From: a virus
Length of the DNA stretch: 28,927 nucleotides
Virus record (IMG/VR): IMGVR_UViG_3300025655_000210
Coordinates: 1 to 28,927 of that record
Direction: 5' to 3' (one strand)
Shown: piece by piece, positions 7,583 to 17,307 of the stretch
Layout of the letters: each line of letters begins with the position of its first letter
Position numbering within the stretch: position 1 is the first letter of the stretch
Program-made: the position numbers and the translations under genes
Notes under the pieces: generated by a model
Seen by the model: only the letters and a program-made list of their open reading frames with translations
Database searches by the model: none
Told to the model about the DNA's origin: nothing

Positions 7583-8254
7583 TTATTGTTTTGGCTTTAA
7601 AGTACCATCTGACATAATCTCATATAGTACGCCACCGATCTCTCTTAGTGATCCAGTTCCTCCGATAGCACTAGAACTAGCATTAAGAACGTCAAATTTC
7701 TGATCTATAAATCCTTTTGCTACTCCATATTTCGTAAACTCAGCAGCGGTAGCTCCTAACCCCGAAACAGCTTGCCCAATACCTTCAACCATCTGCTCTC
7801 TACCAGCAGCCTCTGCTGCCCTTGCTCCTTCCAACTTCATTGTAGCCTCTTGCCTTCTCATAGCTAGATTAGCGTCTTCTTTTGCTTGCTCTCCTGCCAA
7901 TATCTTTTCTTGGGTAGCTTGCTTTGCTATACCTTGAGCTTGAGCAGCTTCAAGTGCTGACCTCCTTCCAGCTTCAGTTATCCCAGCTACATTAGCAGCG
8001 CCTTCAGGCCCCATATCTCGTAACGCCTGAACCTGCATCTGAATTTGAGATTGAGCCTCTTGAAATGCTAGTGAAGATACATCTGGAGTTTGAAGAGCTG
8101 CCATCTCATTTGTAGCCTGCTGCCCAGCCATAGTCGCTGCTGCTGCCTCCGCTGCTGCGTTAGCTGCCTTAGCTTGTTGTTGACCCTGGATAGCCTTACC
8201 AACACTAAGACCAATACCTGCTAGTGAAACTAAAGTTGACGTTATTGCTGCCAT
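7583..8254 (-). CDS. Ala-rich internal virion protein candidate, 223 aa
   Basis: It opens with a hydrophobic stretch (residues 2-22, consistent with a membrane-associating helix) followed by an Ala/Gln-rich helical region through about residue 165, with many EAAA/QAA-type runs. The C-terminal 50 residues are Gly-rich and end in GTLKPKQ. This composition is typical of podovirus ejection proteins such as P22 gp7 and T7 gp14, which leave the capsid with the DNA and help cross the envelope; that comparison rests on composition and position, not homology. Its ATG at 8254 overlaps the end of the upstream GNAT-like gene by 13 nt, suggesting translational coupling. Confidence 0.7.
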   Translation of the reverse strand: MAAITSTLVSLAGIGLSVGKAIQGQQQAKAANAAAEAAAATMAGQQATNEMAALQTPDVSSLAFQEAQSQIQMQVQALRDMGPEGAANVAGITEAGRRSALEAAQAQGIAKQATQEKILAGEQAKEDANLAMRRQEATMKLEGARAAEAAGREQMVEGIGQAVSGLGATAAEFTKYGVAKGFIDQKFDVLNASSSAIGGTGSLREIGGVLYEIMSDGTLKPKQ

Positions 8255-8655
8255 AATACCTTTATCATTTGAGTGCAGTTCTTATCAGATTCTAAGAACC
8301 CACACTGTTTATACTTTGCTTCTAGTCCAGGATTGCCCTGAAAACTTGTAAAGATGAATGTGAACCCCTTATCTATAGCCATAGAAGACAACCCCTTTAT
8401 AAGCATTAGGATTGCATCAGATCTATCATCACCTTTATAATCCTTATCAGAAATTATAAATTCACACCAAGCCATCGAGCTATTAGTTTCATATAGAAAC
8501 CCAGCACAAACAGGCTTATCGCTAGACATTACCATGAGACCACCAGTACCATTATCTGGTAAAGCAAAAGGAGCTGGTGCGTCCCATCCCCAATCTTTCC
8601 ACCATTTTACAAGCGTTTCTTGGTAGTCTTGATCATTCAATTTTCTAACAACCAT
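8242..8655 (-). CDS. GNAT-fold acetyltransferase-like protein, 137 aa
   Basis: The pattern is that of a small GNAT domain: an N-terminal strand-helix (VVRKLND...), a central GFLYETNSSMAWCEFIIS strand pair, a helix after a loop where the acetyl-CoA pyrophosphate normally binds, FTFIFTSF as strand 5, and YKQCGF before the end. The usual Q/RxxGxG/A loop is not clear (KGDDRSD occupies that place), so acetyl-CoA binding is uncertain. A longer reading from a TTG at 8664 is possible, but the ATG at 8655 is the simpler start. Small GNAT-like proteins near tail genes occur in several podoviruses and may be structural rather than enzymatic. Confidence 0.65.
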   Translation of the reverse strand: MVVRKLNDQDYQETLVKWWKDWGWDAPAPFALPDNGTGGLMVMSSDKPVCAGFLYETNSSMAWCEFIISDKDYKGDDRSDAILMLIKGLSSMAIDKGFTFIFTSFQGNPGLEAKYKQCGFLESDKNCTQMIKVLWQQ

Positions 8656-8675
8656 ATTACGCAAAGATAAATAAA

Positions 8676-9422
8676 TTATGGCATACTTTGAGAATATTCA
8701 GAAGATATAGAGAAAATTTCAACTAATTGTGTGTCATTGTTTTGTATAGACACATCCATATAGTATCCTCTCGCACCATAAGACTCGGCAGTACTGTCTT
8801 TAATAACTACTATCATATCCCCAGGAGACGGTGTAATTGTTACAGATGAAACAGTTATTGTATTGTTATCGTAACCAGCAATAGTCCCAATCAAATTGAA
8901 TGATGCTCCAGACGCAAAGTATACCTTATCACCTACAGATATTTGAGACGAGATATTAAACGAGAAGTTTAAGTCGTTACCAGAAATAGATCCAAGCTTA
9001 CCAACACCTTGAGTTGATGTAGCTTTGAAGTCTATAGTGTTAGGATTTCTTCTTATGTATGCGTAAAAGTTACCCTCCTTGTCTTTGAAGTAATCTCTAT
9101 CTATCATTCCACTATCCATGTCAGTGTCTACAGTTACATCCCAAGTAGCATTACTATCCAAAGCTATAGTTCTAAAGTCTTTGGTATCGACAGGAGAGTC
9201 ATTCATTACTAGAGTTATCTCAGATGGATAAGTATAATAGTCTTGAATAGCATAGTTCCAATAAAAAGCATTCCTAGTAGGATTTGTATCATGCTTGTAT
9301 AGCTCTCCATTCTTAAATGTATACATGGAGTTATTCAAATGAACACCCCAATCAGGTAAGAAAGAAAATCTTGAACTCCACCCAGCGGTAGCAATATTAT
9401 ATCCTAAAGTAACCTCAGCCAT
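8676..9422 (-). CDS. Phage tail-associated structural protein, 248 aa
   Basis: The N-terminus has the pattern GWSSRFSFLPDW...NNSMYTFKNGELY, followed by RNAFYWN. I recognise this as a recurrent arrangement in structural proteins of Bacteroidetes and crAss-like phages, although I cannot name a formal family. The rest is beta-rich and Asp/Asn/Ser/Thr-rich, with VGDKVYF and PGDMIVV, typical of small beta-barrel modules in virion proteins. The ATG at 9422 is one base past the stop of the glycosyltransferase-like gene, so the two are probably translated together. No enzyme motif was seen. Assembly near the tail tip or fibre attachment region is an inference from position. Confidence 0.65.
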   Translation of the reverse strand: MAEVTLGYNIATAGWSSRFSFLPDWGVHLNNSMYTFKNGELYKHDTNPTRNAFYWNYAIQDYYTYPSEITLVMNDSPVDTKDFRTIALDSNATWDVTVDTDMDSGMIDRDYFKDKEGNFYAYIRRNPNTIDFKATSTQGVGKLGSISGNDLNFSFNISSQISVGDKVYFASGASFNLIGTIAGYDNNTITVSSVTITPSPGDMIVVIKDSTAESYGARGYYMDVSIQNNDTQLVEIFSISSEYSQSMP

Positions 9423-9423
9423 A

Positions 9424-10371
9424 TTACAAAAGTACTGAATTTTCTCCTACATTTTTTACAATGTCGTAATACATCTTAGAGCACCTGTTGGGGTCTATAT
9501 CTAAATCCTCGTTATATGGTAGTTTTGTGACGTATGATGACTTAAAAAACATTCCAGACTTGTTATCAACTACCCCAGCATTATGAAAAAAACTCTTATC
9601 GTACCACTTACTCTCATGGTCTGTAGCCCAGCAAAAATCGAACTCCTTTGGAGTCATTACATTCTTACCTCGCTTCCATGCATTCCATAACTCACTCCAC
9701 ATAGACGCAGTCCATATCTGTATATCGTTCACATCTGAATCACCATAATCATCTTTATTTTGTAGCAACCAGTTATACAGGTTTATAGAGTCTTCTTCAA
9801 CTTCTTTCCAGTATTCACTAGTCACTTTCTTCATTAACTTCTGCGCGCCACCTGCTCTGCCTCGATTAGCTCTAATCTTACATGCACAAATACCAACAAC
9901 CTTAGCCATCATATCTAAAAGCATTATGCTCTTATCACCCTTCTTATACCCTTTACTCTCTAGATAATCTGCACCTATATAGTGATCCACGTTAGAGAAG
10001 TACCAATTATCATCATTTAGGTACGGCTGAAAATCAAAGTGTTTAGTAAACACAAAATCGCAGTCATGGAAGAATATAGCATAATCCTCTAACTCCCTGT
10101 ATCTTAAAAAGTGATGCTTCAGTATATGAGCTTGGACAGCAGGTAGATAGTTTCTGTTTGGATCGTTATCTATATAAAACGAGAAACGAACCATTGGATG
10201 CTTCGAAACCAATTTCATCCACGAATCTGGAATACTGTCCCTCTGTATAGAGCAAACCACATCTATATCTGTTTCACTATAACCTAGGCTAATAAAATTA
10301 TATAGGTAAACCTCTACTTGCCATGCGTAGTAGTCAGTCGCTGGCTGTGCACTAATAAACTTAAACTTCAT
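9424..10371 (-). CDS. GT-A-type glycosyltransferase-like protein, 315 aa
   Basis: Near residues 98-108 a hydrophobic strand leads into FFHDCDFVF. D103 and D105 form the DxD-type motif that binds the metal and sugar nucleotide in GT-A glycosyltransferases. Earlier, an alpha/beta segment (FISAQP, WQVEVYL, DVVCSI) fits the nucleotide-binding half. NYLPAVQAHILKHHF precedes the DxD as the usual helix before the metal site. FFHNAGVV near residue 280 could be a late metal-binding His segment. No signal peptide or membrane helix is seen, so it should act in the cytoplasm. It lies directly downstream of the polythreonine-rich virion protein, 10 bases after its stop, which makes that protein a natural candidate substrate. 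The exact family and donor sugar are not recognised. Confidence 0.65.
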   Translation of the reverse strand: MKFKFISAQPATDYYAWQVEVYLYNFISLGYSETDIDVVCSIQRDSIPDSWMKLVSKHPMVRFSFYIDNDPNRNYLPAVQAHILKHHFLRYRELEDYAIFFHDCDFVFTKHFDFQPYLNDDNWYFSNVDHYIGADYLESKGYKKGDKSIMLLDMMAKVVGICACKIRANRGRAGGAQKLMKKVTSEYWKEVEEDSINLYNWLLQNKDDYGDSDVNDIQIWTASMWSELWNAWKRGKNVMTPKEFDFCWATDHESKWYDKSFFHNAGVVDNKSGMFFKSSYVTKLPYNEDLDIDPNRCSKMYYDIVKNVGENSVLL

Positions 10372-10381
10372 TTTATTTTAT

Positions 10382-13267
10382 TTAAATACAACTATTCGTT
10401 CCTCCCCACAACTCAAGCCCTGCATCCCATTCAAATGACTCTGAAGAGGCAGTATACTTGTACCATCCACTACGTGCAATTGCTGTACCTGAGGAATCTG
10501 TGTATATCTTAGATGAAGGATCTCCAACAGGGCCATCTATATAATAAGACGCTATATCTGCATAACATGAGTTAACTGCATTAGAGCTATATCTCAACAA
10601 TACTCTAACAGTACCTATTGTCGTAGTTGTCGTAGTAGTTGTCGTAGTAGTCGTTGTGGTTGTCGTAGTACTAGTTGTAGTAGTCGTTACGCCAGCGCAA
10701 TCTACACAGCTATCATACAAGAACTCTATTGTAGTGATCTCAGTAGTACTTCCAGAAACGGCATCAATCGTATAGCAAAGACCGTTAGCACCCTCAACAA
10801 CATCACCGTTCATAAATGTACTAGTTCCGATATACTTTAACACTACTGTACCAACACCATAGCAAGGTGTTGCGTCATAATATGTAGTGGCTAGAGTGGT
10901 TGTCGTTGTTGTAGTTATCGTTGTACAGTCAACCTTAGATAGCAGTAGTCCTCTAGATGATATCAACAGTGCAAAATCACAAGATCCGTCACCATTAGTA
11001 TCTAAGCAGTACCACTTGTTTAGTCCATTAAAATAGGTTGTACCTGCAGCATCTGTGTAAATAAAATCACCCTCCTCTGGATATGTGCCAACCCCATCGT
11101 GATAGTATGTATCATAAGGTGTTGTTCCGTTTGCACACGCATCGGCAGCAGAGCTAAACTCCGTCTCATCCATGTCGTAAGCGGTTATTGGTTTAGCTGT
11201 TGTCGTTGTAGTTGTAGTAGTAGTCGTAGTTACATTTAAACATGTATCGCAATCAGCATAAGTAACCACTGGGTTCTCTATAGAATAGTACGGATACGAT
11301 GCAGTTGTTGATGAAGATATAGTCCAACAGTTTCCGTCAGTAGTTTTAACGACATCACCACCTATAATACCAGTAGTTGTTGTATCAAATAACACTGCAC
11401 TGGTCGTTCCATCCGAACAAAGTGTAGCCGTATAATAATCTCCAACTGGAAGAGTTGTCGTAGTTGTAGTAGTCGTTGTAGTAGTAGTCGTAGTTGTAGA
11501 AGAAGGACATTCATTCTTAGCTATAACCACACCTAAATCATCTATCTGTATTGAATATGTTGAGTTGGCAATGTAATACCAGTACTTATGACCAGGGAAT
11601 CGAACAGAACCATACGTGTCAGAATAAACAATATCGTTTACTTCTGGAACCCTATTTAATCCATTATGATACATCACACTCAATGATGACGCTAGTAGTG
11701 CGCAAGCAGCGTCTCCAGTATCCATTGGCTCATCACTAGCTATAGCAAAAGGCTTTAGCGGTGACTCTGATGCCGCTGTAATCTTTATAGTCTTAGGATC
11801 GCTCTCTCCAAAACAGTTCGTTGCAGTTAATGTTACATTAAACTCTCCAGAACTAGTTGGAATTCCAGATATAAAACCATTAGTATAATTGAATGTTAAA
11901 CCTTCAGGAAGCACCACATCTTGACACACACCTATCTCTGTAGCTGAACCATTACCACTAACAACCGTTGGCGCAGCAGATAGACAGATCTCATAAGTTG
12001 CTCCTGCCCCAATAGTCTCAGTAACGCCATTACCATCGCAATCAGTACCTGTAAAAACTGACCCAAATGTACCGCCATTAAGCGAATATGTCTTGCAAGA
12101 GGAAGATATAGACCATGATGTTGGGTTGTTCGCAGCCGATAAACCAAAACTAACAGCTCTATTTGTTTGAAAAACAACGTCACTCTGACTTATAAATGGA
12201 ACCGAGAATTCAGTACAGTTACACTCACCCTTTGCTGTTACATTACCACTGCTATCCACAACGATATATTGAGCGTCAGCGAGTGGAGCACCAGGACAGG
12301 TAACATCGTCTATCAAGTGATATGCAGATTCACCATCATAAATAACAGAACCATCAGAAACTGTATATATTCTATCACCTAGCTCTGGCAGTGTATTCGA
12401 CCCATTATGGTAGTACTGAGTAGTAGGACATTGAGAACAAACCGTATCCGAATCACCGTTTGTTGTATCTATATAGAATGGTCTTAAGAATACGTCATTA
12501 ATCTTCACAGCCCAAGACGTTGATGCCAATGGAGAGATTATCTTAGCTTTATATGTTCCAGATGATGATAACTTCTTGAACCTAATAACACCAGCACCAT
12601 TGTTTGTAAGACCATCGTATGGTGAAACTAAACTTATATCATCATCACTAACACCTGCACTAATTAACGCATTGTAATTTGCAGTAGTATTGAGCCCTAT
12701 ATATCCAGTATCAGCTACAATAGTAGATCCATTGTAAATCAATATCCTAGCAGGAGTATCGGTCACATCGTATGGTATATCGGTAATTCCGACATCAGAA
12801 CCTAAATCTAAATCGATATTCTTGACAGTTTCACCCCCAGAATAAGAGAATGCCCCAGCACCAGAGCTGTTTGTGTAGTCCCATATAAGGTATAGTCTAC
12901 TGTAATTATTAGGGTTCGAAAAAACAAAGCTTGCCTCATATCTTCCCGAAACAAGTGTAGCAGGTACTTTTGTAGCTTGAGACAAAATCAGCTCTTTATC
13001 CGACTGTGTATACAGCTCATCTGTTACCAGATAGTAAAACGAATTGTTAAGCGATGGATCAAAGTCTACCACCTCAGGATCTACTCCAATCTCGTTAGAC
13101 TTCATTGTCACTGTTGCACCATCATAAGGCATCTGATCAAGACCACCTGTCCCGTTAACAGCCTTGTAGAATATGTTACCATTAACTGGGTCAATAGTTC
13201 TATTATCAAAGCTATACTCGGTACTTCCAGTATATACGTATGATTGATTCGTTTTTATCTTAGCCAT
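10382..13267 (-). CDS. Modular virion surface/fibre-type protein with polythreonine linkers, 961 aa
   Basis: The N-terminal third (to about residue 260) is beta-rich. A cysteine-containing A module follows, then an Ig-like He_PIG domain (LPEGLTF, ISGIP, GEFNVTLTATN) interrupted by an inserted Cys/Gly-rich module. After that, type A modules (pattern YYH-D/N-G, P-E-x-G-D, I-Y-T-D, then W-Y, K-x-x-C) alternate with type B modules (C-x-D-G, G-D-V-V, C-x-T-I, Y-x-x-C-x-x-C), each joined by runs of 7 to 17 threonines. Such beta modules on flexible linkers fit a fibre or capsid/tail surface appendage. The start ATG overlaps the upstream stop (TAATG), tying it to the muzzle-type gene. I infer a host-contact or decoration role; no depolymerase motif is visible. 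Confidence 0.8.
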   Translation of the reverse strand: MAKIKTNQSYVYTGSTEYSFDNRTIDPVNGNIFYKAVNGTGGLDQMPYDGATVTMKSNEIGVDPEVVDFDPSLNNSFYYLVTDELYTQSDKELILSQATKVPATLVSGRYEASFVFSNPNNYSRLYLIWDYTNSSGAGAFSYSGGETVKNIDLDLGSDVGITDIPYDVTDTPARILIYNGSTIVADTGYIGLNTTANYNALISAGVSDDDISLVSPYDGLTNNGAGVIRFKKLSSSGTYKAKIISPLASTSWAVKINDVFLRPFYIDTTNGDSDTVCSQCPTTQYYHNGSNTLPELGDRIYTVSDGSVIYDGESAYHLIDDVTCPGAPLADAQYIVVDSSGNVTAKGECNCTEFSVPFISQSDVVFQTNRAVSFGLSAANNPTSWSISSSCKTYSLNGGTFGSVFTGTDCDGNGVTETIGAGATYEICLSAAPTVVSGNGSATEIGVCQDVVLPEGLTFNYTNGFISGIPTSSGEFNVTLTATNCFGESDPKTIKITAASESPLKPFAIASDEPMDTGDAACALLASSLSVMYHNGLNRVPEVNDIVYSDTYGSVRFPGHKYWYYIANSTYSIQIDDLGVVIAKNECPSSTTTTTTTTTTTTTTTLPVGDYYTATLCSDGTTSAVLFDTTTTGIIGGDVVKTTDGNCWTISSSTTASYPYYSIENPVVTYADCDTCLNVTTTTTTTTTTTAKPITAYDMDETEFSSAADACANGTTPYDTYYHDGVGTYPEEGDFIYTDAAGTTYFNGLNKWYCLDTNGDGSCDFALLISSRGLLLSKVDCTTITTTTTTTLATTYYDATPCYGVGTVVLKYIGTSTFMNGDVVEGANGLCYTIDAVSGSTTEITTIEFLYDSCVDCAGVTTTTTSTTTTTTTTTTTTTTTTTIGTVRVLLRYSSNAVNSCYADIASYYIDGPVGDPSSKIYTDSSGTAIARSGWYKYTASSESFEWDAGLELWGGTNSCI
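10619..10687 (-). repeat. Polythreonine-coding tract (17 Thr, one Ser, 5 Thr)
   Basis: 23 consecutive codons, 22 of them Thr, link the last B module to the C-terminal A-like module. The codons mix ACA, ACT, ACG and one ACC, so the run is conserved at protein level and is not a pure DNA trinucleotide repeat. Confidence 0.95.
10895..10924 (-). repeat. Polythreonine-coding tract (2 Thr, Ile, 7 Thr)
   Basis: A short Thr linker joins the third A module to the second B module. It is interrupted by one Ile and has mixed Thr codons. Confidence 0.9.
11198..11230 (-). repeat. Polythreonine-coding tract (11 Thr)
   Basis: Eleven consecutive Thr codons with mixed third positions lie between the first B module (ending DCDTC) and the third A module. 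Confidence 0.95.
11453..11497 (-). repeat. Polythreonine-coding tract (15 Thr)
   Basis: Fifteen consecutive Thr codons follow two Ser and precede LPVG. They separate the second A module from the first B module. Confidence 0.95.
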
Positions 13268-16200
13268 TATAAAGTAGTTTTAATATCTGGGTCTACTGTG
13301 TCGTATATAATCATTATAACTTCTCCATCTTTGCCTATTGACTGGTATATATTAAATGTTTTTGTCAGTCCACCACAGTAAGTTATTGTTAAAATAGCAG
13401 TTCTATTAGATCCAGACGAGTTGTATCCAAGACCTAGATATACATCCTGATTTCCGCTTCCAGACTGAGGATATCCAGTAACCCAACCAGAACCAGAGCT
13501 ATACGAAACGCTTATAGTCCATTCAGTATTGCTATATATTGTAAAGTCTGGAACATTATTACTGATCGTTCCTGGAGTGTCTGAAGCACCGCCGATATCG
13601 TAGTTTCTCCACTGTCTATCTAGATAAAGATCACAAGGATTCGATGTGTTATCGTTCGATGCCAGTATATACTGATCGTTGTATGGATCGTATATACCTA
13701 TCTTCATCGTGTTAGGATTATCCATGAATAAATCTCTAAAGTAATCAGACATTCCATCAACTATTGGAACAATACCTCCAGTTGTCATCTTTAATACCTC
13801 ACCTCTTCTAGTGTCTGTGAAGAAGATTTCATTAGCCCATCTAGCAAAGCTTTCAGGATTAGTGCTTATTCCCCATTCTCCAGCATAAGGAACCTGAGTG
13901 CCTAAAACCTGCGGCACAGATGTAATAGTTCCTCCTCCTATAGCGTCAGAAAGTAAGTTCTTTCCATATAAAACCTTGCTAACCTTATTCTCTTGGAATA
14001 CAAGTAAATCAGTGTCTCTTGCGTGAAGCTTCTGTATAGATCCAAATTCAACATCTAAATTCTTGAAGTTAGAAGCAGATAGGTTGAATTCATTAAGTCT
14101 ATTTACAGACGACTCACCTCTATATATATTACTATAACAAAGAGATGATTTCTTAACCTCCTCTTCGTAAGTATCAACGGTAGTCATAACTCTTGGAGAA
14201 TATTCTATTGTAGTCTCATTAAAGTCATCTAAAATCCTGTTAGATTCAAGACCATTTCCAAAAGAAAAGGCATTATGAGTATTGTTAGGATTGTCAGGGT
14301 GGCCTATCACGATCACCGCTGGAGTGGTAGATGTCTGATCTAATTCCAATTCTGTACCATATAATGTCTGATGCTCTAGAGATATTTTACCACCTTCAGC
14401 CGTACCAGCAGATACCCAAGGAATATCCAATGTAATCCCGTAAGCGTCAGGCACATTTACTACTGTATATGTTCCAGACTGAACATGAATCGATGCTGAC
14501 ACTGAGTGATCTACCACAACTCTATCTCCTATTTTAAATTTATGAGGTCTAGTAGGTGTAAGTTGAACAAGTTTTGTGTTGCCAGAATCAAACTCAAAAT
14601 CATCATATTTCCATTGAACTTTATGCAACCCATCTTCAATTGGATACGTGTCTGTTATTTCATGGAATATCTCTTGATCTGAATCGATTGGCTCCGTTTC
14701 GGCTATCACTGCACCGTCAAGTTGAGTGACGTAAAAATTTACTATAAATTTGTTCTGATCGCAACCATCATTTGTATTGTATCCACGTATAATCATTTTG
14801 ACAGGATAATTTACTGTCGATGAATTAGGAGATCCTCCTTGATTTATTGTGTTAACCTTATAGCCAGTACTAACTGTGTAAAGGCCCCAATTAGACCCTC
14901 TCCTAAAATATATTGACGCTGCACCTGTTGGTAACCCAGTATTCCCAGCTACCTGAGTCCATTGAGTATATATCTCATCTTCAAAGAACCACTCCTCTAT
15001 GTTTTCATATTGTCTTGATGAGTAAAACGTCATAGAGTGAGGAGATTGATCTGGGAATGACGTACTAGGATTATCTTGATATATCCATAATTTTATCTGA
15101 GCACCTGCATTTATTTGTTGCGTAAAACTATCGTCTGGAACTATTGCAAACCCACCATGATTATCCCCAGTTGGTAATCCTGTTCCTTTTGATGTCAATA
15201 ACTTCAGCCTTCCTCCAAATACATTTTGAGCACCACTATTATTAATATCTCCTCGACAATTTATTCTCCAAGAGTCTCCTATATTATACCCCGTTGCTGT
15301 AGAAAATTGTACATTAAAAAGTATAGTACCATTACCAGATTGTATAGGAATATTAGTGTTTGGTGTTATCACTTGTGGAGAAGACCATGAACTTAAGGTA
15401 GAAGCTGTGAAATTAGTCCCAACAAACCTATACCTGAACCTTGCGGAACCAGATAGAATGTCATATATCTCCAATACAACCCTCAAGTCATCAATTCCGA
15501 GATACTCCCAGTTATTTGATATGCTTAACGAGCTTCCATTAGAACTAGACCCGTAGAATACTGGGCTCTCTGTACATTTAAAGTATCCATCAATTGGGAA
15601 AAATGAGTCTTGATTACAGTTAAGTACTGAAATATTAGAAAGTGGTGTAGTATCATTTGCCCCATAAGATGAACCTGAATAATATTGAATCGAAGACTGA
15701 GGAAAATCGCCTCCATCAACCTTAACTTTAAAATAAACACCTGGTGATTGATACGATCCATTATCAAGAAAATCCTTAGCTTTAACATCTATTTCTAATA
15801 CCTTATACTTCTTGTTAGATAATGTTGGCCCGTCAGCATTTGACTTAAATATTATATATTCACCAACTTTTATCTTATCAACATCTGATTGATTTATTAG
15901 GAAGTAGCGATACACACCTTGAGAGTAGTATAATATTGGAAACACATTATAGTACTGAGATTTTGATTGTTTTATCACAACCCTGTAGTGTGTAGCAAAG
16001 ATTGGAGGCTCATTATCAATCTCTAAAACTATACTATTTGCGTGTATACTATTCTCTGGTTTTATATATACAGTGCCACCATATGTTGAGTTAGTCGAAT
16101 TTGATGGAGTAGTCAAAACTGTAGTAAGTCTACCGTAGTTATCGCCATAAACAACACCAATCTCGTAATCTCTATCCGAACGGAATGTTCTCTTACCGTT

Positions 16201-17307
16201 ATTATCCTCTATACTAGAACTTATATATCTAACATTATGTTTTATAGGAAGGTCAATCCCTTGCTCATTAACCACATCATAAAACTGAGTATAGTTACCA
16301 TATACCAACCTTCGCTCAATAATATCTTGAGATTTAGCCTTTAAAGGTACGTTGTCAAATAATCTAGTTAACTGATCTGAACTAAGAACAGTATATGTCT
16401 TATTATTTGCAAATTTATATTTATACGAATAGTTGTTATCTATGTTTAATACATCTTTCTTAAACTCCTCGACTACCACTACGTTGAGATTTTTTGAATC
16501 TCTAAAAACCAATTGTATCGACTTAACGAATCTATTACCCGTCTCGAATGTTACCTCGACTTCGTTCTTCGTGTTAGCCATTGCTTTATTATTTCCTGCA
16601 GCATAATCAATCTGAAAATTACCAGGATCAAAAGAAACTCCAGAAAATGGAGAAAGCGAACTATATTGGTTATCAACATATTTATATCTGTAAGCAAACT
16701 GAATAAATCTTTTTTCAATGTTATTCTCTTCGTCCTGCTCCTGCGTCAAGTATATAGTAGGGGCATTCATTGGAGGAGCTTTTATAACTCTAATATCATC
16801 ATCTATCCTAAGATCATCTATAGAGTAAGACTTCCATCTAGAAATATTACCACCAAAAGGCTCATTATAATTGTCTGTCCAAAATAACAAGCCATCGATA
16901 TAATTAAACCCCGTAACATAATAGTCAGGGTTGAAATTCAATTTGCTAGGAGTAGTAGGAGTTGCCTTATTAGATTGAAGAACTCTTGTTATAGTATCTG
17001 AAATCTCATTATATTCAAATACTCCATCAAAATAGTCTGATGAAACTAAGTAGTATATCTTTCTTTCAGCCTCAACTGGTATAGCCCCAATAGTTCTAAA
17101 TGAACTATCTACTGGGTATCCACAAACAGAAGACAAGTCTTGTACTTTTGTATTACCTTTTTTGTTTCTAGCGGTTCCTGAGTTAGAGTCATCACCACTA
17201 GATACGTCTATGTTTAAGGCATCTCTATATTGACCTCTAGGAACAAGGCGTTCATCTAGATCCTTGTTCATCATGGCAGATGAGAAAGTTCTTATACTTC
17301 TAGCCAT
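13267..17307 (-). CDS. Tail muzzle / stabilisation-type protein with C-terminal BACON-like domain, 1346 aa
   Basis: The N-terminus (MNKDLDERLVP near residue 13, then YRDALNI and GNT) has the pattern I associate with the large tail stabilisation proteins of crAss-like and related podoviruses. In phiCrAss001 the protein of this size and position forms the tail muzzle. The long middle is beta-rich, with frequent aromatic, Asn and Ser residues. Residues about 1245-1323 read as a BACON-like domain: W near the start (1263), SGW, SGSGN, a late N...RTAIL-T-I strand, and a closing I-Y-Q. BACON domains are typical of Bacteroidetes carbohydrate-active and phage tail proteins. Both ends use TAATG junctions. 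It probably lies at the distal tail, closing the tube or contacting surface glycans; that is inferred from family and order. Confidence 0.75.
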   Translation of the reverse strand: MARSIRTFSSAMMNKDLDERLVPRGQYRDALNIDVSSGDDSNSGTARNKKGNTKVQDLSSVCGYPVDSSFRTIGAIPVEAERKIYYLVSSDYFDGVFEYNEISDTITRVLQSNKATPTTPSKLNFNPDYYVTGFNYIDGLLFWTDNYNEPFGGNISRWKSYSIDDLRIDDDIRVIKAPPMNAPTIYLTQEQDEENNIEKRFIQFAYRYKYVDNQYSSLSPFSGVSFDPGNFQIDYAAGNNKAMANTKNEVEVTFETGNRFVKSIQLVFRDSKNLNVVVVEEFKKDVLNIDNNYSYKYKFANNKTYTVLSSDQLTRLFDNVPLKAKSQDIIERRLVYGNYTQFYDVVNEQGIDLPIKHNVRYISSSIEDNNGKRTFRSDRDYEIGVVYGDNYGRLTTVLTTPSNSTNSTYGGTVYIKPENSIHANSIVLEIDNEPPIFATHYRVVIKQSKSQYYNVFPILYYSQGVYRYFLINQSDVDKIKVGEYIIFKSNADGPTLSNKKYKVLEIDVKAKDFLDNGSYQSPGVYFKVKVDGGDFPQSSIQYYSGSSYGANDTTPLSNISVLNCNQDSFFPIDGYFKCTESPVFYGSSSNGSSLSISNNWEYLGIDDLRVVLEIYDILSGSARFRYRFVGTNFTASTLSSWSSPQVITPNTNIPIQSGNGTILFNVQFSTATGYNIGDSWRINCRGDINNSGAQNVFGGRLKLLTSKGTGLPTGDNHGGFAIVPDDSFTQQINAGAQIKLWIYQDNPSTSFPDQSPHSMTFYSSRQYENIEEWFFEDEIYTQWTQVAGNTGLPTGAASIYFRRGSNWGLYTVSTGYKVNTINQGGSPNSSTVNYPVKMIIRGYNTNDGCDQNKFIVNFYVTQLDGAVIAETEPIDSDQEIFHEITDTYPIEDGLHKVQWKYDDFEFDSGNTKLVQLTPTRPHKFKIGDRVVVDHSVSASIHVQSGTYTVVNVPDAYGITLDIPWVSAGTAEGGKISLEHQTLYGTELELDQTSTTPAVIVIGHPDNPNNTHNAFSFGNGLESNRILDDFNETTIEYSPRVMTTVDTYEEEVKKSSLCYSNIYRGESSVNRLNEFNLSASNFKNLDVEFGSIQKLHARDTDLLVFQENKVSKVLYGKNLLSDAIGGGTITSVPQVLGTQVPYAGEWGISTNPESFARWANEIFFTDTRRGEVLKMTTGGIVPIVDGMSDYFRDLFMDNPNTMKIGIYDPYNDQYILASNDNTSNPCDLYLDRQWRNYDIGGASDTPGTISNNVPDFTIYSNTEWTISVSYSSGSGWVTGYPQSGSGNQDVYLGLGYNSSGSNRTAILTITYCGGLTKTFNIYQSIGKDGEVIMIIYDTVDPDIKTTL

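Follow-up and report, generated by a model that had tools for sequence, protein, structure and literature searches.

Modification of virions by glycosyltransferases that phages themselves encode is already known. In mycobacteriophages (Che8 and its relatives), such enzymes were reported to modify capsids and tail tubes (PMC10877033, PMC11256854, citing Freeman et al. 2023), and in the Che8-related phage Maravista the transferases are described near the 3' end of the genome. Here, one 28.9-kb viral record (IMG/VR record IMGVR_UViG_3300025655_000210, 28,927 nucleotides; hereafter the window) was analyzed, in which a putative glycosyltransferase (GT) of the family phrog_4417 is encoded directly behind a protein with long threonine (Thr) tracts. 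As predicted from its genes and a structure model, this GT is very likely a dedicated phage O-glycosyltransferase for the Thr, or Thr and serine (Ser), tags and linkers of the phage's own virion proteins.

The mycobacteriophage system resembles the one proposed here in that phage-encoded transferases act on capsid and tail, while the system of the window is known from genes and a model. The two also differ in position, with the Maravista transferases near the 3' end of the genome and phrog_4417 beside its presumed acceptor genes. No Mycobacterium phage was present among the 74 phrog_4417-bearing records, and the capsid and tail proteins of Che8 contain no Thr run longer than one residue. By sequence comparison, the Che8-type system appears to share neither the GT family nor the tag with the system of the window. 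A phage-encoded GT coupled to particular virion proteins, which is one of the marks of virion glycosylation by a phage, was found here as co-occurrence and as joint presence or absence. No description of phrog_4417 or of a poly-Thr tag was found in the literature, with most subscription journals outside the search and an earlier description possible; the pairing of phrog_4417 with poly-Thr is undescribed in the searched literature.

The enzyme and its presumed acceptor comprise the following features:

9424..10371, minus strand: phrog_4417 glycosyltransferase (GT), predicted GT-A fold, 315 aa (phrog_4417 match, structure model, PDB matches)
10057..10065, minus strand: DxD motif D103-C-D105 of the GT, aspartates invariant (alignment of 68 homologues)
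10382..13267, minus strand: Thr-tract protein, 961 aa, presumed acceptor, predicted beta domains with Thr linkers (phrog_21885, model)
11453..11500, minus strand: Thr tract 1, residues 590-605, linker (sequence; predicted local distance difference test, pLDDT, <50)
11198..11230, minus strand: Thr tract 2, residues 680-690, linker (sequence; model)
10895..10915, minus strand: Thr tract 3, residues 785-791, linker (sequence; model)
10619..10687, minus strand: Thr tract 4, residues 861-883, linker (sequence; model)

A first-pass annotation made from the sequence had placed a GT-like gene 10 bases behind a Thr-rich protein with about 50 Thr in its linkers. Both open reading frames (ORFs) were recovered as described, with 10 bases (10372-10381) between the end of the Thr-protein stop codon (10382) and the ATG of the GT (10371), and 55 Thr codons were counted in the four long tracts.

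Co-occurrence of phrog_4417 and threonine tracts

In a first scan, each of the 68 viral loci with the GT contained a Thr-rich ORF, which was nearly always the gene immediately upstream. Many of the records are fragments. When one locus was retained per 75%-identity GT cluster, a Thr/Ser tract occurred within 4 kb and on the same strand as the GT in all 41 phage loci, 39 of which had it within 1.3 kb upstream, and opposite-strand tracts occurred in none of the 41. Random viral loci contained tracts in 3 of 120 cases (four tracts in a total of about 1 Mb), and the association of GT and tract is confirmed to be far beyond chance. The co-occurrence across phage genomes that the first-pass annotation had suggested looking for is therefore present, and rather than standing equally often beside tract-free proteins, the phage copies of the GT always lie near a Thr tract. 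In the reverse direction, phrog_4417 was detected in 9 of 50 poly-ACN viral records compared to 0 of 49 random records (Fisher p 0.003). In five of the GT-positive poly-ACN records, 3-19 bases lie between the end of the Thr ORF and the start of the GT. A tract can thus be predicted from the GT, while phrog_4417 can only sometimes be predicted from a tract.

Comparison of homologous acceptors shows joint presence and absence of the GT and the tracts in three separate phage groups. For the first, ten contigs were retrieved by the phiFL1A tail protein after removal of the tag from the query. Tail and capsid proteins were tagged in 3 of 3 contigs with the GT and in 0 of 7 without it, the untagged tail proteins of the latter being 64-87% identical to that of phiFL1A. 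For the second, tail similarity was used, blind to the GT, to collect forty tail-protein loci, of which all but a few came from 398 sampled Bacilli genomes. The only GT-positive locus (1/1) was tagged, and the 39 others, one of them at 70% identity, had neither GT nor tag. Several of the untagged tail relatives without GT (L536, L537, L543, L549, L552) carry Big_2 or Big_5 immunoglobulin (Ig) domains at the position of the C-terminal tag. Such Ig-like or carbohydrate-binding extensions of siphophage major tail proteins share the C-terminal place of the Thr tag and likewise decorate the virion surface, but they are folded domains and come without a GT. The third group consists of podophage siblings of the window (L069-L073), which have the same gene order and a homologue of the Thr protein but no GT. 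The T15 of tract 1 is replaced by TPPTPPTPP in these siblings, while total Thr amounts to about 15% in both. Since the siblings have equal total Thr without T15, the tract rather than Thr content is what follows the enzyme, as read from these sequences.

The GT and the tract are usually adjacent, as would be expected if both merely hitch-hiked as neighbors on one DNA segment with no enzyme-substrate relation. This explanation is very improbable, as the window and the GT-less podophage siblings differ in several linkers distributed along about 0.9 kb of a single gene, and capsid and tail tags in prophages of Bacillaceae and other hosts lie 2-3 kb apart, on either side of the GT, with similar endings within each genome (SA/SA, GA/GA, and AAV/AAV). 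Tail and capsid proteins are both tagged regardless of which one precedes the GT, and together with the similar endings in one genome this disfavors linkage alone.

Distant GT homologues (28-35% identity) were identified in phages of Lactobacillus, Enterococcus, Staphylococcus, Lactococcus, and Chryseobacterium, in which poly-Thr sits on a different protein from the Thr protein of the window. In Bacillota phages, the GT is accompanied by C-terminal poly-Thr tags on major tail and capsid proteins that are unrelated to one another, at a distance of 2-3 kb in some cases. The unrelated acceptors that bear the tag comprise the tail families phrog_88, 117, 238, 2645, and 14018 and the head families phrog_10 and 544. 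Examples are the major tail proteins of phiFL1A (...DNGTTTTTSTTTTTTSSTTTTTTTQASSK) and Lactococcus phage 1706 (...GVTTTTTTTTTTHHD), the tail proteins of iLp84 and Iacchus, and the capsid protein of Enterococcus phage 4995_1. All 13 isolate records examined have a tract, which in Enterococcus phage 9183 is only a short TTTSTT end. Ser and proline (Pro) are tolerated in the tracts, as in the GT-positive relative L010 (TTSPTTSPTTSP), which has TTSPTTSP-type linkers in place of pure Thr, and in L059 (TSTSTST). It is improbable that the GT glycosylates virion proteins outside the Thr tracts, with the tracts as docking or spacing elements, since the tract is the sole feature common to the unrelated acceptors and its tolerance of Ser and Pro fits an O-glycosylated mucin-like segment.

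Enterococcus phages VPE25 and VFW both carry phrog_4417, and their DNA behaves as glycosylated (PMC4999554), as it might if the GT acted on phage DNA bases. However, the GT is also found in numerous small prophages (about 35-40 kb), invariably within the structural block and tracking virion Thr tags, and VPE25 itself has a Thr-tagged tail protein, so that DNA is scarcely credible as the substrate.

Poly-Thr also closes the tail-protein ORF of Staphylococcus phage VB-SauS-SA2 (L077:6114-6927) and that of vB-SscS-F1 (L573). In SA2, a second, overlapping ORF in a different frame continues as a long Thr tail, and programmed frameshifting may give some copies of the tail protein a longer tag.

The enzyme and its chromosomal relatives

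The GT of the window matched phrog_4417, a family of unknown function, over its full length (E 1.4e-58, residues 4-308 against profile positions 2-291 of 293). In the alignment of 68 phage and bacterial homologues, D103, D105, G175-A176-Q177, W220, M224-W225, and K277 are invariant, and H263 and G266 are nearly so. The AlphaFold2 model built on this alignment reached a mean pLDDT of 95.5, and its closest PDB structure matches were GT-A glycosyltransferases, as had been guessed beforehand. They include glycogenin (Z 14.9, 3.4 A over 226 residues) and LgtC (Z 14.6), followed by the Skp1-glycan alpha-galactosyltransferase (Gat1), UGGT, and LARGE1. Glycogenin and UGGT act on proteins, and Gat1 acts on Skp1 glycans. 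No significant Pfam family of any GT was found for the enzyme at E up to 1, no family was assigned by a PDB sequence search, and a profile search of the window record did not detect PF00535. GT8-type enzymes (glycogenin, LgtC) have the fold and the DxD in common with the GT, but identity is only 8-11% and no Pfam family is matched. The model confirms the predicted GT-A fold glycosyltransferase, nearest to GT8-type folds, yet outside GT8 by sequence profile. A C-terminal H-x-x-G followed by K presumably recalls the GT8 pattern.

Phages do carry enzymes that modify the host surface, and the GT could in principle serve receptor masking or serotype conversion, its position in the virion operon being incidental. 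This is highly improbable, as the model is a compact 315 aa with no extra membrane segment, and the GT stands directly after acceptor genes in unrelated phages and is lost jointly with the tracts.

In the family tree, three sets stand apart, namely the Bacillota phages (100/100), the Bacteroidota phages with few exceptions, and the majority of the chromosomal proteins of Bacteroidota. The chromosomal proteins are 27-36% identical to the window GT and share its phrog_4417 domain, but usually measure 440-585 aa. In L195, L206, L218, L225, L208, L205, and L217, the domain forms the N-terminal half of a longer protein, fused to a Glyco_transf_7C region in those scanned. The adjoining LanC-like proteins, C39 ATP-binding cassette (ABC) exporters, HlyD, and short GG-leader-like peptides suggest clusters of the ribosomally synthesized and post-translationally modified peptide (RiPP) type with a peptide glycosyltransferase, which is a lead. 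Chitinophaga sp. YR573 (L224) is unusual among the chromosomal loci, with two tandem phrog_4417 copies and an STTTTSSTT stretch about 1.8 kb upstream. The GT homologue of Enterococcus phage 9183 (L576:6001-6870) is annotated as similar to a Streptococcus PqqD-family peptide modification chaperone, a hint at peptide-modifying relatives of phrog_4417.

Proposed mode of action

The dedicated pair of acceptor and enzyme put forward by the first-pass annotation gains support from the co-occurrence, from GT-less homologues without tracts, and from unrelated acceptors elsewhere. Virions are assembled in the cytoplasm, so that such a system needs a soluble nucleotide-sugar enzyme. The GT would be soluble and dedicated to Thr/Ser tracts of virion proteins from the same phage. 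In the phage of the window, these tracts would be disordered linkers between the beta domains of a long tail-associated protein, while Bacillota phages would have them as short tags at the C-terminus of the major tail protein, the major capsid protein, or both. Made together with its acceptor from the same late operon, the GT would use a cytoplasmic nucleotide-sugar and a DxD-bound metal to glycosylate the hydroxyls of the tracts in trans, either ahead of assembly or while it proceeds. This would yield mucin-like linkers or particles with a sugar-coated surface. We infer catalysis on Thr, its timing, and its benefit, which could be extended or rigid linkers or the shielding or decoration of tail and capsid; the first-pass annotation had named a stiffer stalk, mimicry of host glycans, or evasion of recognition as possible benefits. 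In podophages, the Pro-rich linkers that replace the Thr linkers in the GT-less siblings suggest that sugars keep the linkers extended. In siphophages, surface decoration by the tagged tail proteins is suggested by the Ig domains that occupy the corresponding position on untagged ones. Less assured, but still likely, is that poly-Thr is a portable glycosylation tag, recognized in trans by one GT family on whichever virion protein gains it. Phages of two phyla would then sugar-coat tail tubes, capsids, or stalk linkers, and the same domain would be found in peptide-modifying clusters of Bacteroidota.

Several results weigh against glycosylation of the tracts by phrog_4417. The poly-Thr viral records lacked phrog_4417 in 41 of 50 cases, and these 41 were not clearly richer in PF00535 (GT2 genes) than random records (10/41 vs 6/49), so that a Thr tract alone does not imply glycosylation. 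Thr tracts were present near only 1 of 21 Bacteroidota chromosomal homologues, and the phrog_4417 domain can therefore serve other acceptors. The Pfam Glyco_transf_8 profile did not place the GT in CAZy GT8. Loci within a clade are related and not independent, and the support therefore rests on the three independent joint changes and the unrelated acceptors, not on raw counts.

That every poly-Thr phage carries a recognized glycosyltransferase is unsupported by the same PF00535 counts. Two viral contigs without phrog_4417 (L286, L339) encode small proteins with a terminal T14 tag, followed by a gene that is probably for tail assembly; these small proteins may be served by another enzyme or by a GT beyond the contig.

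If the proposed activity is true, virion glycosylation would be modular and shared by many phages, temperate as well as lytic, and no peculiarity of a few mycobacteriophages. The hosts concerned would be lactobacilli, enterococci, bacilli, and Bacteroidota, with phrog_4417 and a Thr tract as the sequence signature. An unnamed family would receive a function, and the most abundant virion proteins would have an explanation for their low-complexity Thr tails. For bacterial O-glycosylation, the combination of a small enzyme and a short tag might also become a useful tool.

The presumed acceptor and its surroundings

In its model, the Thr protein consists of beta domains in a row, most of them predicted confidently. 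The pLDDT falls below 50 at residues 28-44, 590-605, 679-691, 785-792, and 859-884, the last four of which are the Thr tracts. A Foldseek search against the PDB returned only generic multi-Ig or beta-domain proteins with very low TM-scores, from which no function was read. Slippage of nucleotides or trinucleotides is unsupported as the origin of the tracts; a plain trinucleotide slip is unlikely because the Thr codons are mixed (ACT 24, ACA 17, ACG 12, and ACC 2).

The late block lies on the minus strand in the order terminase, portal, several virion proteins, phrog_14478 protein, Thr-tract protein, GT, and muzzle-like protein. The genes that flank the pair are:

13267..17307, minus strand: virion structural protein phrog_14478, 1346 aa (E 1.7e-199; fused to the Thr protein in L069-L073)
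8676..9422, minus strand: muzzle-like tail protein directly 3' of the GT, operon context (crAss_MUZ_C, E 1.5e-12)

In the podophage siblings, the phrog_14478 protein and the Thr protein form a single ORF of about 1970 aa. Due to this fusion with a virion structural protein, the Thr protein is very probably a virion component, in agreement with its earlier designation as a virion protein. One base separates the end of the GT stop codon from the muzzle-like gene, a homologue of which is annotated as a structural protein in an elemo phage. The nearest records by portal were an environmental podophage (51% identity) and Flavobacterium elemo phages (43%), from which the host probably belongs to the Bacteroidota. 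With these portal identities and the crAss_MUZ_C match, the phage of the window is a candidate Crassvirales-like podophage.

Within the tail operon, a 140-aa protein of phrog_17252 is encoded at 8242-8664 on the minus strand. Since the annotation of its counterpart in podophage MW202828 reads N-terminal acetyltransferase subunit, it is a possible second modifier of virion proteins in the window.

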